64,000 nt of DNA from Athalassotoga saccharophila (lineage in GTDB: Bacteria; Thermotogota; Thermotogae; Mesoaciditogales; Mesoaciditogaceae), in NCBI RefSeq assembly GCF_009936215.1, contig NZ_AP019551.1:1450708-1514707 (forward strand). Direction: 5' to 3'. Each line of letters opens with the position of its first letter. Position 1 is the first letter of the stretch. Under the pieces are notes generated by a model. The model was not told the origin of the DNA, did no database searches, and was given only the letters and a program-made list of their open reading frames with translations. The position numbers were made by a program, and so were the translations under genes. This document shows positions 16,933-52,722 of this stretch, one piece after another.

Positions 16933-16961
16933 TTGATCGGTCATTTCTTTTGTGATAGAAT
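16933..16961 (+). promoter_or_regulatory. Promoter of the B12 riboswitch-btuFCD operon
   Basis: TTGATC, a 17-base spacer and TAGAAT with a TGn extension. The predicted start (about 16968) coincides with the first base of riboswitch helix P1. Confidence 0.8.
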
Positions 16962-16967
16962 AATTCT

Positions 16968-17110
16968 GAAACAGGTTTTAACAGGGAAGTTCGGTGAGAA
17001 TCCGACATGGTCCCGCCACTGTAACCGGCGACGAAATCTGCAGATGCCACTGGGAAACTGGGAAGGCGCAGATGGAGAATGACCCGGAAGTCAGGAGACC
17101 TACCTGTTTC
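16968..17110 (+). promoter_or_regulatory. Adenosylcobalamin riboswitch aptamer
   Basis: The aptamer is closed by GAAACAGGT (16968-16976) pairing with ACCTGTTTC (17102-17110). Inside are the conserved GCCACTGTAACC and GCCACTGGGAA segments and the B12 box AGTCAGGAGACC (17089-17100). It precedes cobalamin uptake genes. High adenosylcobalamin is expected to favour the downstream terminator and shut off btuFCD. Confidence 0.95.
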
Positions 17111-17164
17111 GAGAAGTTCATAAACACTCGCGCGAAGTGTTGAGGATGGTAAAAATGGGAAACC

Positions 17165-46098: not shown

Positions 46099-46195
46099 AA
46101 AAATTTAAAACAAATGAAATTGAATATTCTCACTTAAGAAACCGAAGGTTATTATTTTATGTTGTAAAATTTTTTTAAAGGTCAAGGTGATAGGT

Positions 46196-46264
46196 TTGAA
46201 TTACGTAAAATTGTTAGAAAACAAGAAGTACGTCAAGCAACCGCCCGGTGGAGCGGAAGTTTGA
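46196..46264 (+). CDS. Candidate lysine-rich leader peptide of the DAP/lysine operon
   Basis: A 22-codon ORF with four Lys codons, including the run NKKYVK, and ending QPPGGAEV. It starts with TTG 46196 behind AAGGTGA; an in-frame GTG at 46187 behind AAAGG would give 25 codons. A perfect intrinsic terminator lies 24 bases after its stop and before dapF. Its last codons overlap a segment (46244-46252) complementary to 46281-46289. The arrangement matches a translation-controlled attenuator. Whether the peptide is made is unproven. Confidence 0.6.
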   Translation: MNYVKLLENKKYVKQPPGGAEV

Positions 46265-46319
46265 TCGTGCTTTTTCCATATCCACCGGGCCACATCGAAA
46301 AGATGTGGCCTTTTTATTT
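46241..46319 (+). terminator. Attenuator: competing hairpins and intrinsic terminator upstream of dapF
   Basis: GGCCACATC (46288-46296) pairs with GATGTGGCC (46302-46310) around GAAAA and is followed by TTTTTATTT. Upstream, CCCGGTGGA (46244-46252) pairs perfectly with TCCACCGGG (46281-46289), which overlaps the terminator's first arm by two bases and abuts the rest. CCGC/GCGG (46241-46256) is a third small hairpin. Both the alternative helix and the leader ORF suggest conditional termination. Confidence 0.75.
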
Positions 46320-46335: not shown

Positions 46336-47040
46336 ATGAATTTTTTCAGGTACAACGCAACAGGCAACACATTTATAATCTGTGACATTTCGAATTCTAA
46401 AGTAACAGACGAAGAAAAAAGCAAGATAGTCATCGAAAGGGTAGAAGATCGAGACGGGATGATCTTCGTAGAGAAGAAAAAAGGCGAATTTTTTATGGAC
46501 TATTTCAACCGTGACGGGAAAAGGGCCGCTTTTTGTGGTAACGGATCGAGAAGTTTTGTCAAATATCTTCACGATTCAGGACAAATAGTTGATAAGGTTA
46601 TCTTCAATTCATTCTCCGGCTACGTTGAGGGAAGAATAACGCCAGAAGGCGTTATGGTAAAGATGCCACCTTTGAAAGTTGAAAGGATAGATAAAAAAGG
46701 ATATTACGTCACTGTCGGCGTACCACATTACGTGATCTTTTCCAAGGACATAGAAAAGATAGATGTTGAAAATGAGGGAAGAAGATTAAGAAATGAGTTA
46801 GACGCGAATATCGATTTTGTAGAGGTAGAAGGTGATTCAAGAATAAAGGTTAGAACTTACGAAAGAGGCGTTGAAAAGGAGACAAAGGCATGCGGTACCG
46901 GATCGACCGCAAGTGCTTACGTCGGGAGAATGATCAATAACTGGGATGATTCAGTTACCGTTATCGTTAGAGGAGGAATTCTCGAGGTCGTATTTGATGG
47001 AAATGACATATATCTTAGAGGAGGCGTTGAGAATGTTTAG
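46336..47040 (+). CDS. dapF: Diaminopimelate epimerase
   Basis: Interconverts LL- and meso-diaminopimelate by a two-cysteine mechanism. The 234 residues carry YNATGNTFI at the N-terminus, NRDGKRAAFCGNGSR with catalytic C67, and TYERGVEKETKACGTGSTAS with catalytic C186. It is shorter than the usual 260-280 but both halves are complete. AGAGGAGGTG precedes ATG. It is the first structural gene of the DAP operon and overlaps dapA by eight bases. Confidence 0.95.
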   Translation: MNFFRYNATGNTFIICDISNSKVTDEEKSKIVIERVEDRDGMIFVEKKKGEFFMDYFNRDGKRAAFCGNGSRSFVKYLHDSGQIVDKVIFNSFSGYVEGRITPEGVMVKMPPLKVERIDKKGYYVTVGVPHYVIFSKDIEKIDVENEGRRLRNELDANIDFVEVEGDSRIKVRTYERGVEKETKACGTGSTASAYVGRMINNWDDSVTVIVRGGILEVVFDGNDIYLRGGVENV

Positions 47041-47929
47041 AGGAGTGGGAACTGCGATCATAACTCCATTCAAAGATGGAGAGTTAGACATGGAAACTTA
47101 CGTGAGATTGGTGAATTTCCAGATCGAAAATGGCGTCAGAGCGATATTCGTTCTTGGAACTACGGGAGAATCCCCGTCTGTAGAAAATGATGAAGTTGAC
47201 CGTCTTGTAAGCAAAAGTACCGAAATTTGCAAGGGCAAAGTAGAAGTCATAGTCGGCGCGGGAACAAATGGCACAAAAAAGACAGTTGAGATTATAAAAC
47301 GTGTCGAAAAGTACGATCCAGAAGGAGTCCTTGTTGTGACACCTTATTATAATAAGCCTACCCAAAGGGGCCTTTACGAACATTACAAGTACATCTCTGA
47401 GCGTACAGATATGAACGTGATAATTTACAATGTGCCATCGAGGACTGGGGTCAATATTCTTCCAGAGACTGTCTACAAAATAGCATCTGATTGTAAAAAT
47501 GTCAGAGGATTGAAAGAGGCAAATCCAGACATAAACCAGATCGACATGGATATACTCACTCTCAAAAGTATTGAGAATTTCAGAATATACTCGGGAAATG
47601 ACGACTCTGCCTTCCATTTGCTTTGCTCGGGTGGAGATGGCATAGTCTCTGTCGCTTCAAACGTGATTCCTCGCCAAATGCAGGAGATGTGCGATCTTGT
47701 CTTTTCTGGAAATGTAGAGAAGGCAAGAGAAATTCACATGAAATATTTTAATTTCTTTAAAGCACTTTTTATCGAATCAAATCCAATTCCGGTAAAGGCC
47801 GCCATGTCCATGATTGGATTTGGTAATGGAGAATTGAGATTGCCCCTCGTCAGCGCTAATGAAAAAACCATCGATACATTGAAAGAAACGATGAGAAGAT
47901 CCGGAATATTGAAAGCAGAGGTGGCGTAA
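47033..47929 (+). CDS. dapA: 4-hydroxy-tetrahydrodipicolinate synthase
   Basis: Condenses pyruvate with aspartate semialdehyde. The 298-residue TIM barrel has GVGTAIITPF, FVLGTTGESPS near 42, YYNKPTQRGLYEHY with the catalytic Tyr near 134 and VRGLKEAN with the Schiff-base lysine near 162. The frame is open to 46946 inside dapF. ATG 47033, eight bases after AGAGGAGG, gives the standard N-terminus. Confidence 0.97.
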   Translation: MFRGVGTAIITPFKDGELDMETYVRLVNFQIENGVRAIFVLGTTGESPSVENDEVDRLVSKSTEICKGKVEVIVGAGTNGTKKTVEIIKRVEKYDPEGVLVVTPYYNKPTQRGLYEHYKYISERTDMNVIIYNVPSRTGVNILPETVYKIASDCKNVRGLKEANPDINQIDMDILTLKSIENFRIYSGNDDSAFHLLCSGGDGIVSVASNVIPRQMQEMCDLVFSGNVEKAREIHMKYFNFFKALFIESNPIPVKAAMSMIGFGNGELRLPLVSANEKTIDTLKETMRRSGILKAEVA

Positions 47930-48588
47930 TGAACTTTGGAGTAGTTGGCACTGGGAAGATGGGAAAGGAGATAATCGAGACATTTCAGGATGCCGGCCAC
48001 AAACTTGTCCTGAAGGTCAACAGTTCTGGACAGAAGATGGAAGGTGTTCCAGATGTCATCGTTGATTTTTCAAGACCTGAAGCCCTTAAAACAACGCTGT
48101 CGATCTGTTACGATCACAAAATCCCTCTCGTCATAGGTACAACCGGCCTTGGACAGGAAGAGATGGAAGAACTTAAAAAAGCATCAAATCATTTTCCAGT
48201 CGTTCAATCTTACAATTTTTCCATTGGAATAAATTTAATGCTTAAGATCCTTTCACAATTTTCGATCTATTTGAACGGATGGGACACGGAAATTTTCGAA
48301 ATGCACCACTCTTCCAAAAAAGATAAACCTTCCGGTACTGCCTTGATGATAAAAAATGCACTTGGAAGAGAAGTACCAATTCATTCTCTCAGAATAGGCG
48401 GCGTTTACGGAGATCACAGATTAATCTTTGGAAATACAGGAGAAATAATAGAGATATCCCACAGGGCATTGTCAAGAAAAGTATTCGCAATGGGGGCGTT
48501 AAAAAGCGCGGAATGGATAGTAGGAAAAGCACCCCGGTTTTACGCATTTGACGAGATAATCGAAAATATGAAAGGCGTGGAAAAATGA
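47929..48588 (+). CDS. dapB: 4-hydroxy-tetrahydrodipicolinate reductase
   Basis: NAD(P)H-dependent reduction of the DapA product. 219 residues: cofactor loop [16 protein letters not shown] near 79, the catalytic [15 protein letters not shown] near 124-138 and [14 protein letters not shown]. It is short like other Thermotogota DapB. The ATG shares a base with the dapA stop and its end overlaps dapH. Confidence 0.97.
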
Positions 48589-49289
48589 ACACAGACGAGA
48601 TAATAAACCTTATATCCAATTCAAAAAAGGTGACTCCTGTGAAAGCCTTTATAAAAGGCGATCTTGGCGGAATCGACTTTGGGAGTCTTGAATTTTTTGG
48701 AGATGAAAAATTTGGAATCCTCTTTGGAGAATACGAAGAGGTAATGAAAATCGTAAATAGCGGGAAAATAAATGGGTACCATCTCGAAGTCATCGCGAAA
48801 AATTCTGCCATTCCACTTTCAGACATTTTGAAGTACAACGCAAGAATAGAGCCCGGCGCGATAATAAGGGACATGGTCGAGATAGGAGACGGTGCCGTAA
48901 TAATGATGGGCGCGATCGTAAATATAGGCGCAAGCATAGGAAATGGAACGATGATAGACATGAATGCCGTAATCGGCGGCAGGGCAATTATAGGTCAGAG
49001 GTGTCATATAGGCGCAGGTGCTGTGATAGCCGGTGTGATAGAGCCACCGAGTGCAACGCCGGTTATGATAGAAGATGACGTGCTTGTTGGTGCAAATGCG
49101 GTAATTTTGGAGGGAGTTCATGTCGGAAAGGGAAGCGTTGTGGCGGCCGGTGCCGTTGTGATAGAGGATGTACCTCCATACCACGTCGTTGGTGGAGTGC
49201 CTGCAAAGATAATAAAAATTGTCGACGGAAAAACGATGTCAAAGTCACAGATTGTGGAAAGTTTGAGAAATCTTGGGGGCCAAAAATGA
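48585..49289 (+). CDS. dapH: Tetrahydrodipicolinate N-acetyltransferase
   Basis: Acetyl-CoA-dependent acetylation that opens the tetrahydrodipicolinate ring. The 234 residues show a short N-terminal domain. A left-handed beta helix of hexapeptide repeats follows (about 85-200: [38 protein letters not shown] and [20 protein letters not shown]). Its presence marks the N-acetyl branch rather than the succinyl or dehydrogenase route. Confidence 0.95.
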
Positions 49290-50485
49290 ATGTGATCGTT
49301 CAAAAATACGGTGGATCTTCCGTTGCAGATACTCAAAGAATTAAAAACGTTGCAAAAAGGATAAAGGCGAAGATAGATCAAGGGTACAAAGTCGTTGTCG
49401 TCGTATCGGCGATGGGAAAGACGACAGATAATCTAATTTCTCTTGCAAATGAGTTGAGTAAAGATCCGAATCCGCGGGAAATGGATATGCTACTTTCAAC
49501 TGGAGAGCAAATATCCATTGCCCTTCTTTCGATAGCGCTTGAGGAGATCGGGGTGTCTTCAAAATCTTTCAACGCATTTCAGATCGGGATAAAAACAACT
49601 AACAATCATACTCAGGCAAAGATAAAGGACATAAATGATGAGGTCATTTTCAAAGAATTTGAAGATCATGATGCCCTCATAATCGCAGGCTTTCAAGGCA
49701 TAGACGAGATGCAGGATTTGACAACGCTTGGACGTGGTGGATCGGATACGACTGCAGTTGCATTTGCCGCAAAGTTGAAATGCGATTGTGAAATATACAG
49801 CGATGTGGATGGGATATACACATGCGATCCCAAGATGTACCCTAATGCAAAAAAACTGTCTTACATAACTTACGATGACATGTTAGAACTCGCTTCTTTG
49901 GGAGCAAAGGTTTTGCATTCAAGATCGGTCGAAATTGCCAAGAAATACGGTGTAAAGATTTATTGTGCATCTTCATTTACAGATACGGAGGGGACTTACG
50001 TGGTAAAAAAATTGCCTGAATGGCTTGAACAGCCCGTCGTTACGGGCGCAACGATCGAGAAAAATCAGACAAAGATCACCATTTCAGATCTTCCAGACGA
50101 CGATCTTTTAATCTCGAAAATTTTTGAAAGACTTTCCAATTTAAATGTGAACGTGGATATGATATCTCTTTTCTCCGATGGAGAAAAAATGCACCTTTCA
50201 TTTACGATCGTCGAAGATCACAAGGAATCGATGATGAATTCTTTGAAGGAATTGGTAGGTCAAGGAGCAAAAATAACCAACGATGGATATTACACAAAGG
50301 TCTCTATAGTTGGCGTTGGCATGAAATCGAGCACCGGAGTGGCTGGCCGCTTCTTTTCGATTCTTTCATCTCTTCACGTTAAACCCGTCCTTGTTACAAC
50401 ATCTGAGATAAAGATTTCATGTCTTGTCGATCCACAAAAGTCTGGAATCGTTTTGGAAAACCTCGCAAAAGCCTTTGATCTCTGA
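49286..50485 (+). CDS. lysC: Aspartate kinase
   Basis: First enzyme of the aspartate family. 399 residues: [11 protein letters not shown] at the N-terminus, [22 protein letters not shown] near 135-156, then two ACT domains (about 255-399) that normally bind lysine or threonine for feedback inhibition. It overlaps dapH by an ATGA junction. Placement inside the DAP operon suggests this isozyme serves lysine and cell-wall DAP. Confidence 0.96.
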
Positions 50486-50495
50486 GGTGAGAGAT

Positions 50496-51644
50496 ATGAA
50501 TCAATATTTAGTGGATCTTTACAAACCATTTCCAATAACCGTTGAAAGATCAGAACGTATATACATTTACGATTCAAAAGGGAAAAAGTATATCGACACC
50601 TTTTCTGGAATAGGAGTACTCGCCTTTGGTCATTCAAATGAAGAGATAAAACGCGCGATGAAAGAGAAGATAGACAGATACACCCATCTTTCGAATTACT
50701 TCACAGATCCGGATGCAATAGAGGTTGCGAAAATGATCGTAGAAAGGACCGGAAGGCGCGGAAAGGTATTTTACGGAAATTCTGGAACGGAGGCGAATGA
50801 AGCGGCTCTAAAGGCTATAAAAAAGAGAAAGGGAAAGATACTCTCTTTTAGTGGAAATTTTCACGGAAGAACGATAGGATCCCTTTCTATAACTGGCTTT
50901 GACAATCTTTCAAAACCATTTCTTCCATTGATCGAAGATGTGGACTTTCTCCCATTTGGAGATTCAAAGGCCTTCGAAGATTATATGTCAAAAAGAGGAA
51001 GTGATGTTTCGGCAGTCTTTGTCGAGACATTGCTTGGAAGTGGCGGGCTTAAGATGATCGATGACCAATTTGCAAAGAAGGTTATGGAATCGAAAGAAAA
51101 GTACAAATACATTCTTGTCGCCGACGAAGTTCAATCTGGCCTCGGAAGGACTGGAAAGTTTTACGCGCACGAACATTTCAACATAAAGCCGGATATAATA
51201 ACGGTCGCAAAATCAATAGGAGGAGGACTTCCACTCTCTGCGACAATCTTTTTAGATGAATACTCGGATATGTTCTCACAGGGCGAACATGGATCAACCT
51301 TTGGACCCAATCCTGTCGCACTTGCGGCGGCAAAGGTTGTGCTGTCGAAATTGAATGCGGAATTCATAGACGAAGTAAGAGAAAAGGGAGAGTATTTCAA
51401 AAGAAATCTAAGTGTCATGCCGGTCAAAGAGGTAAGAGGCGTGGGATTGATGATAGGTGTCGAAATTCCATTTCAATCGAAAGATATAATTGCGGCAGGA
51501 TTAAAAAACGATTTACTTTTGAATGTTGTGAATGGAAACACGGTAAGATTCCTTCCGCCTCTCGACATTTCCTATGAAGAAATGAATGAAATACTTGAAA
51601 GGTTTGAAAAAACACTTGAGGCATTGAAAAATGGACTCGATTGA
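50496..51644 (+). CDS. Class III aminotransferase, probable N-acetyl-LL-diaminopimelate aminotransferase
   Basis: An ArgD-like PLP enzyme of 382 residues: GVLAFGHSN, YGNSGTEANEAALKAI near 86-101, VADEVQSGLGRTGKF near 206-220 and TVAKSIGGGLPLSA with the PLP lysine near 239. Sequence alone would allow acetylornithine aminotransferase. Its position between lysC and the M20 deacetylase, in an operon with dapH, favours transamination of N-acetyl-2-amino-6-oxopimelate. ATG 50496 follows GAGGTGAGA; the frame is open further upstream inside lysC. Confidence 0.85.
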   Translation: MNQYLVDLYKPFPITVERSERIYIYDSKGKKYIDTFSGIGVLAFGHSNEEIKRAMKEKIDRYTHLSNYFTDPDAIEVAKMIVERTGRRGKVFYGNSGTEANEAALKAIKKRKGKILSFSGNFHGRTIGSLSITGFDNLSKPFLPLIEDVDFLPFGDSKAFEDYMSKRGSDVSAVFVETLLGSGGLKMIDDQFAKKVMESKEKYKYILVADEVQSGLGRTGKFYAHEHFNIKPDIITVAKSIGGGLPLSATIFLDEYSDMFSQGEHGSTFGPNPVALAAAKVVLSKLNAEFIDEVREKGEYFKRNLSVMPVKEVRGVGLMIGVEIPFQSKDIIAAGLKNDLLLNVVNGNTVRFLPPLDISYEEMNEILERFEKTLEALKNGLD

Positions 51645-52722
51645 ATTAAGGCGTCTTATACACCAAAATCCGGAACTTTCATTTCAGGAATACAAGACCC
51701 AAGAACTACTCAAAAAGGCGGTAGAGGAGATCGGAGTCGAAGTTTACCCGATCGCTCAAACGGGCCTTATCGCGATCATAAAGCGTGTAAACTCTCCGTA
51801 CATACTTTTAAGGGCAGACATGGATGCCCTTCCCATTAAAGAGAAAACTGGATGGAAATTTTCTTCCCAAAACGATTACATGCATGCCTGTGGCCATGAT
51901 GTCCATATGGCTATCATGTACGAAGTTATGAAGGCAATCTACAAGTGGAATGGAAATTTTATCTTTGTCTTTCAGCCGGCAGAAGAGAGCGGCGGAGGAG
52001 CGAGCCGAGTTATAGAAGAGATAAGGGATAAATACGAAATATCTTGTGCGATCGCAACTCACGTGACCGATGAATATCCATTCGGAACGGTTGCGACAAA
52101 TAGAGGTGTGATCTTTGCAAGTGCGACAGAGATAAATCTAACCTTTACAGGAAGGCCGGCACACATCGCGTTCTACAAAGATGGAATAGATGCGATAAGG
52201 GCCGCATCAAACTTTCTTGAGAAATTTTATTCTGTCGATTTCGGTGAAAATGCAATCGCTGGATTTGGGAAGGCTTTCGGTGGACAGGCAAGAAATATAG
52301 TTGCAGACGAATTTCAACTTCAGGGCACAATAAGAACGGACACCGTTGAAAAATCTCGTATGGTTTACGAAAAGATATATGAAATCGCGAAAGATATTTG
52401 TAAAACAACTGGATCCAATTTTTCCTTGGAAAAAGGGAGTTTTTATGTGCCCGTGAATGTCGATGAAAGGATGTTTGAGATATTCAAGAAAACAGTAGAT
52501 AAAAGCGAATTTGAACTCGAAATGTGCAAAATGAAATACACCGGGGAAGATTTCGGATTTTTCTCTCAAGAATATCCTTCTCTTATCTTTTGGGCGGGAA
52601 CGATGGAAAAGACGCGATACGGACTTCACAATCCTATGTTTTTACCAGATGATAAGGTTATAAAGCCAATTGCAAATCTTATAGTTTCTTACGTAAGAGA
52701 GATAATGGAAAACGCGCACTGA
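51631..52722 (+). CDS. N-acetyldiaminopimelate deacetylase (M20D peptidase family)
   Basis: A 363-residue zinc amidohydrolase releasing acetate from N-acetyl-LL-DAP. Features: IHQNPELSFQEYKT at the N-terminus, LRADMDALPI near 58-67, HACGHDVHMA near 86-95, FQPAEESGGGA near 112-122 and TGEDFGFFSQEYP near 305. The M20D family also has amino-acid amidohydrolases, so the specific substrate rests on operon context. It overlaps the aminotransferase by 14 bases and is followed by a terminator. Confidence 0.9.
   Translation: MDSIELRRLIHQNPELSFQEYKTQELLKKAVEEIGVEVYPIAQTGLIAIIKRVNSPYILLRADMDALPIKEKTGWKFSSQNDYMHACGHDVHMAIMYEVMKAIYKWNGNFIFVFQPAEESGGGASRVIEEIRDKYEISCAIATHVTDEYPFGTVATNRGVIFASATEINLTFTGRPAHIAFYKDGIDAIRAASNFLEKFYSVDFGENAIAGFGKAFGGQARNIVADEFQLQGTIRTDTVEKSRMVYEKIYEIAKDICKTTGSNFSLEKGSFYVPVNVDERMFEIFKKTVDKSEFELEMCKMKYTGEDFGFFSQEYPSLIFWAGTMEKTRYGLHNPMFLPDDKVIKPIANLIVSYVREIMENAH

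Follow-up and report, generated by a model that had tools for sequence, protein, structure and literature searches.

A Probable Ribosome-Mediated Lysine Attenuator before the Diaminopimelate Operon of Athalassotoga saccharophila and Its Relatives in Mesoaciditogaceae

Introduction

Leader-peptide attenuators of the classical type are known from the trp, his, thr, leu, ilv, and phe operons of enterobacteria, and several of them have separate Rfam leader families. The leader described here, which precedes a diaminopimelate (DAP)/lysine operon of Athalassotoga saccharophila, resembles them in having a short open reading frame (ORF) rich in codons of the amino acid presumed to be regulated, a leader-codon hairpin, an antiterminator, and a terminator before a biosynthetic operon. 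Unlike in the classical systems, its antiterminator strand is part of the coding sequence (P-P-G-G), is situated at the apex of the leader-codon (1:2) hairpin, and takes 3-4 bp from the terminator, and paralogous copies with different putative sensor codons have a common RNA core. Lysine-responsive leader-peptide attenuation was reportedly described by Tsubouchi and coworkers (J Biol Chem, in 2005) for the lysine (α-aminoadipate) gene cluster of Thermus thermophilus; the leader here would be alike in its mode of control but belongs to another phylum and pathway (diaminopimelate). T-boxes, which sense tRNA charging by direct tRNA binding, are likewise a family of homologous RNAs whose amino-acid specificity can be exchanged, whereas here the specificity would lie in a translated ORF.

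In other Thermotogota, lysine operons of this gene order are targets of the L-box, which binds lysine directly by an aptamer of roughly 180 nt that the Mesoaciditogaceae leader does not have. One survey found L-boxes before this operon in all Thermotogae species it examined, and listed asd-dapF-dapA-dapB-dapD-lysC-aminotransferase as an L-box target in Kosmotoga and Thermosipho (PMC5584792). A study of Actinobacteria detected no RNA element upstream of lysine operons and described lysine as L-box-regulated elsewhere (PMC1262725). With the covariance model of the L-box (RF00168), 57 of 103 Thermotogota genomes gave a match, but none of the ten Mesoaciditogaceae genomes did. This and the survey agree with an earlier, sequence-only reading of the locus, according to which Thermotoga-type lysine operons are known for lysine riboswitches and a different solution would be used here.

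A. saccharophila NAS-01 is a cultured, completely sequenced hot-spring thermoacidophile of the Mesoaciditogales (Thermotogota) that grows at 55 °C, and its genome was published as 1,957,762 + 43,703 + 43,534 bases (PMC7163026). The assembly used here totals 2,044,999 bases, with a chromosome of 1,957,762, and the window is the whole stretch of 64,000 nucleotides of it that was analysed. Collectively, the data below make it very probable that the leader is a ribosome-mediated transcription attenuator sensing the supply of lysyl-tRNA.

The Lysine Operon and the Leader ORF

The operon 3′ of the leader reads dapF-dapA-dapB-dapD (acetyl type)-lysC-argD-like aminotransferase-M20-type amidohydrolase, and these NCBIfam matches bear out its earlier assignment to the diaminopimelate/lysine pathway.

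46336..47040, forward strand: dapF, diaminopimelate epimerase, first gene of the operon presumed to be controlled (TIGR00652, 166.5 bits; cut-off 114.65)
46946..52722, forward strand: remaining operon, dapA to the M20-type amidohydrolase (NCBIfam; ORF bounds)

For the dapA ORF, the match to its family starts only from residue 34. A promoter scan gave three promoter-like sites, compared to 5.0 expected in shuffles, and is thus uninformative. Elsewhere, the window contains a cobalamin riboswitch (16956-17121, forward strand, 103 bits).

The leader begins with a translation signal and a short ORF.

46184..46191, forward strand: Shine-Dalgarno (SD) sequence AAGGTGAT of the leader ORF (direct reading; 4 nt before the start)
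46196..46264, forward strand: leader ORF of 22 codons plus TGA, MNYVKLLENKKYVKQPPGGAEV (TTG start at 46196, TGA end at 46264)
46223..46228, forward strand: putative sensor codons Lys10-Lys11 (AAG AAG), among the codons at which a ribosome stall permits the antiterminator; KK, RK, or RR in homologues

The sequence-only reading had proposed 22 or 25 codons, a ribosome-binding site, and four Lys codons. The binding site and the Lys codons, at positions 5, 10, 11, and 14, are present, and the 22-codon version is the right one because the identical SD motif and its 4-nt spacing are kept in two orthologues (G002 and G003), whereas the GTG at 46187, from which 25 codons would be read, sits inside this conserved motif and is a less likely start. 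The locus thus has a translatable short ORF with SD, start, and stop. In each of 22 members of the family introduced below, its frame stays open over no fewer than 20 upstream codons; the other two frames are generally closed, and the insertions and deletions within the ORF are multiples of three.

These properties of the frame bear on whether translation matters at all. A translation-independent RNA switch, be it a small riboswitch or a T-box-like element that contains the ORF by chance, would be in keeping with the strong conserved RNA structure, with the conservation of TTGATC around the stop codon, and with a terminator stem that is conserved in sequence besides pairing. However, the start, SD, and stop accompany the open frame in all 22 homologues, and those codons that do change track the downstream gene. 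Neither the L-box nor the T-box, for both of which the region before the ORF had been judged too short, nor any other Rfam family matches the leader, and the Rfam leader families (His, Trp, Leu, Thr, and Phe) give no match at or above the gathering score in the window or the homologues. We therefore regard such a switch as very improbable and prefer an attenuator that is read by ribosomes.

Alternative RNA Structures

The whole leader folds with z = −5.25, and four structural elements could be assigned.

46223..46275, forward strand: leader-codon (1:2) hairpin enclosing the antiterminator 5′ strand (minimum-energy fold, predicted −26.1 kcal/mol; compensatory changes in 9 and 22 homologues)
46243..46252, forward strand: antiterminator 5′ strand, GCCCGGTGGA, codons 16-19 (P-P-G-G), half of a 10-bp helix
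46281..46290, forward strand: antiterminator 3′ strand, TCCACCGGGC, half of the 10-bp helix; the final 3-4 nt of this strand double as the base of the terminator stem
46287..46311, forward strand: intrinsic terminator stem-loop, followed by a U-run at 46311-46315 (−18.1 kcal/mol; compensatory changes)

The terminator, which pairs 46287/46288-46296 with 46302-46310/46311, was correctly placed by the sequence-only reading directly before dapF. That reading had also recognized the ORF and a complementarity of 46244-46252 with 46281-46289, which is real but one base pair short: the antiterminator helix comprises 10 bp, 46243-46252 with 46281-46290, and a perfect complement of 10 arises in only 3 of 2000 dinucleotide shuffles. 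The overlap between the two alternative helices is 3-4 nt (46287/46288-46290) instead of the two bases previously counted. What went unseen was the hairpin at 46223-46275. In the minimum-energy fold it starts at the first Lys codon of the Lys10-Lys11 pair and carries the antiterminator 5′ strand in its apex, and by this model it is a leader-codon hairpin of the classical attenuator type; the fold and its covariation indicate a structure that would give termination without translation. The antiterminator and terminator share 3-4 nt and are mutually exclusive to that extent, but the exclusion at equilibrium is only partial.

Covariation

Since the MAFFT alignment (A3) puts a 3-nt gap in the wrong position within the antiterminator, its pairs were counted on 22 members by anchoring each sequence. 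Positions 1-10 are each paired in 18-22 of the 22 sequences, and position 11 in none. Position 2 occurs as G-C, G-U, or A-U and position 7 as C-G, U-G, or U-A, while position 9 is C-G in 17 members and G-C in five. The 3′ nucleotide of pair 9 pairs in the terminator stem as well, at its base, and its partner there changes along with it (C to G). Covariation of one nucleotide with each of two alternative partners is the pattern expected of a switch. There is little variation in the 5′ strand, so that a part of the support for the antiterminator comes from conservation rather than covariation, and a single permease homologue (in G003) has an A-C mismatch in the helix.

For the 1:2 hairpin and the terminator, 93.3% of the cells are paired in an alignment (A4) that was fitted to the model and hence leans towards the structure, whereas slid versions reach 36-45%; ten pairs are changed on both sides, as is attained by 3 of 500 shuffles, and the covariation score is 0.225, compared to 0.148 in shuffles. 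An unfitted alignment of nine sequences gives a similar picture.

From the small overlap of 3-4 nt, one might suspect that the terminator is constitutive and that the short ORF translated before it confers no response to amino acids, but this would leave unaccounted for a 10-bp helix kept with covariation in 22 homologues, with one nucleotide covarying with both partners, and a complement that chance yields about three times in 2000 shuffles. This explanation appears the least probable of those considered, and the antiterminator is taken in what follows as one state of a switch.

Codons That Could Sense Lysine

In order to locate the responsive codons, the A site was set at each codon in turn and the RNA beyond the ribosome was folded, this RNA being free from the first base of the A site +13. 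In this in-silico stalling, the antiterminator forms only with the ribosome at about codons 8-13 (ENKKYV), which include Lys10-Lys11, and the part overlapping the terminator is strongest for stalls at codons 9-12. The responsive codons hold for leading edges from +10 to +16 and for 37 or 55 °C, with shifts of about one codon. Lys5 lies outside this stretch, and from a stall at Lys14 only the non-overlapping part of the antiterminator can pair. A ribosome that has reached the stop codon, or one that sits on PPGG, covers the antiterminator strand in the folding and lets the terminator form. It had been proposed earlier that a stall at Lys10-Lys11 frees the antiterminator strand and a ribosome at the stop codon hides it, and the in-silico stalling reproduces both. 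Codons for the end product are thus located where a stall would free the antiterminator, and Lys10-Lys11 is kept before other lysine operons.

In a transcript short of the 3′ arm of the terminator, with the ribosome on Lys10 or Lys11, the complete antiterminator is predicted at −18.3 kcal/mol at 55 °C. At equilibrium with the same ribosome positions, the overlapping antiterminator pairs have a probability of about 0.6-0.7 and the terminator base one of 0.56-0.73, and in homologues the computed antiterminator probability is only 0.1-0.2 in several and about 0 in three. Because the exclusion at equilibrium is partial, switching would have to be kinetic, with the antiterminator forming first.

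The responsive codons coincide with a run of K/R/H codons in 16 homologues, amounting to 42 of 65 responsive codons as against 46 of 337 elsewhere, a comparison of related sequences that is to be read as description and not as probability. Another candidate for the sensor is arrest of the nascent chain at PPGG, eased by EF-P, in place of waiting at Lys codons. The window peptide does contain PPGG, and the PGG codons hardly change among homologues. This holds for them as nucleotides, however, and the flanking residues differ, in keeping with a constraint on the RNA rather than on the peptide: with SPGG, LPGG, LPSG, PPGE, or PAGG at this place, homologues keep the antiterminator nucleotides and not the PPG motif. 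In addition, a ribosome on PPGG would cover the antiterminator strand and favour termination. Arrest at PPGG was consequently rejected as the sensor, its probability being very low, and Lys10-Lys11 are preferred as the sensing codons.

A Family of Leaders in Mesoaciditogaceae

A pattern search followed by a covariance model (R2) gave 24 elements, the window leader and 23 homologues, in all ten Mesoaciditogaceae genomes searched; since all come from one bacterial family, these counts are not independent. The 24 members score at least 51 bits, and the next match scores 29.7 bits. The reading frame, 1:2 hairpin, antiterminator, and terminator are kept and covary across the homologues. Two further matches of the pattern search were set aside: L041 is unrelated, the remaining core being absent, and L045 is missing a part of the terminator arm, probably by a fault of the draft assembly. 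A transporter leader of G001 (L084:1501-1589, reverse strand) is also without a part of the antiterminator/terminator arm; a draft-assembly fault is probable because that genome's dapF leader is broken at the corresponding place. A search of viral contigs returned only a chance fragment, and one of named genomes a single relative, ARK-11.

Orthologues of the dapF-operon leader are found in three congeners (G001, G002, and G003). Those of G002 and G003 read MNFCDFLKNKKYVKCPPGGAVL, and that of G001 is cut by a contig end that falls within the terminator. A non-syntenic operon of another genus, lysC-dapB-dapA-dapD-aminotransferase-lysA, has the same type of leader with NKKQVK. It had been reasoned that homologous leaders keeping neither the Lys codons nor the complementary segments would speak against attenuation; the opposite was found, with NKKYVK in the dapF-operon leaders, NKKQVK, the antiterminator, and the terminator all kept. 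Among the ten genomes, six have dapB above cut-off, and each of the six has a Lys leader before its lysine operon. For lysine biosynthesis, the agreement between putative sensor codons and target genes is clear.

Other copies precede genes for uptake and peptide use. Leaders of amino-acid ABC transporter genes read N(K/R)KH(H)VK, the best NCBIfam model being lysine/arginine/ornithine-binding, below its cut-off, and those of APC permease genes read NRKH(D/I)KY. A match between codons and target is plausible for cationic amino-acid transport, with the transporter specificities themselves being predicted. Leaders before family-5 solute-binding protein genes read NERR(H/D)HRV, and those before operons of a Xaa-Pro-dipeptidase-like amidohydrolase and a family-5 binding protein (L085, L086, L087, L091, and L092, with a PAGG core) read (Y/H/F)(I/V)VLI(L/M); for these Arg/His and Ile/Val/Leu copies in front of peptide-use genes, no metabolic match is obvious.

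Other Leaders in Thermotogota

Several other leaders were observed in the phylum. Arg-rich leaders (e.g., ..NIRRRTRCRWVMNGA) with a terminator stand before argG-like genes in other Thermotogota (L095:1501-1606 and L096:1501-1606, reverse strand; L098:1501-1610 and L109:1501-1602, forward strand) and are likely arginine attenuators, unrelated to the window family. Leaders with His runs (HHH/HHHH) and terminators (L099:1501-1602, L111:1501-1613, and L113:1501-1609, forward strand; L100:1501-1610, reverse strand) are likely histidine attenuators; the gene downstream of L099 matches hisZ models, and those downstream of L100 and L113 look alike. A candidate asparagine attenuator in a Mesoaciditogaceae genome (G004; L124:1501-1614, reverse strand), MCKDINLVASYKFNNNNNPLDIGRWG, contains a run of five Asn codons, is followed by a terminator, and precedes a gene for asparagine synthetase A. 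In another Thermotogota family, RHHSRCGL leaders that precede genes of amino-acid ABC transporters (L094:1501-1605, reverse strand; L097:1501-1605 and L110:1501-1604, forward strand) mix Arg and His codons in a manner similar to the Mesoaciditogaceae transporter leaders. A conserved argJ leader (L101-L104, L106, and L107, around 1391-1580), GGAGGCGCC(A/C)ATGTAGCCGGTGG, has an SD followed by AUG and directly by UAG, and its AUGUAGCCG has a complement in the CGGCUACAU arm of the terminator, so that it is possibly an attenuator based on a start-stop. Finally, a leader MKIFILSLFNLINTLNNQPEPKVWPSQHLKFGV with a terminator precedes a citrate synthase gene (L105:1501-1614, reverse strand; G038). The Arg, His, and Asn leaders suggest that ribosome-mediated attenuation may be common in Thermotogota.

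Proposed Mechanism

The observed anatomy, conservation, and covariation of the leader, the permissive stall positions, and the family-wide agreement of sensor codons and genes are the basis of the following model. When lysine is ample, the ribosome would pass Lys10-Lys11 and occupy codons 15 to the stop, hiding the antiterminator 5′ strand, upon which the terminator would form and transcription would end before dapF. When lysine is scarce, the ribosome would wait at Lys10 or Lys11 and cover the 5′ arm of the 1:2 hairpin. The segment 46243-46252 would then be left free to pair with 46281-46290 as these emerge, and the antiterminator would take the lowest 3-4 bp from the terminator, allowing RNA polymerase to read into the lysine operon. 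In the event of no translation, the 1:2 hairpin would form and the terminator would stay on. The antiterminator 3′ strand is made before the terminator is complete, which could provide for kinetic switching. We infer from the sequence that the ribosome actually stalls, that the kinetics are of this kind, and that lysine regulates the operon.

Conclusions

Ribosome-mediated attenuation is already known; what appears to be new is a probable lysine-specific attenuator of classical type that precedes a DAP operon, occurs in a new lineage, and belongs to a homologous family with exchanged sensor codons. Our literature search, which lay outside most subscription journals, found nothing specific on lysine leader peptides or attenuation in Thermotogales. 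Likewise, a family of related attenuators with a shared RNA core and exchangeable sensor codons, found on the same operon type instead of the L-box, appears to be new. It seems reasonably probable that one ancestral Mesoaciditogales attenuator was copied to several operons and had its sensor codons rewritten (Lys; Lys/Arg/His; Arg/His; Ile/Val/Leu) on a nearly fixed antiterminator-terminator core. The result would be a modular family comparable to T-boxes, with the specificity in codons and some copies sensing several cationic amino acids via one leader, and on the lysine operon of this order it would be present instead of the L-box.

One operon type would thereby be under two unrelated RNA regulators within one phylum, of which Mesoaciditogales is a deep-branching order. 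The family presents attenuators as reusable modules whose specificity would be set by two or three codons, and such modules would allow direct tests of how amino-acid specificity evolves.
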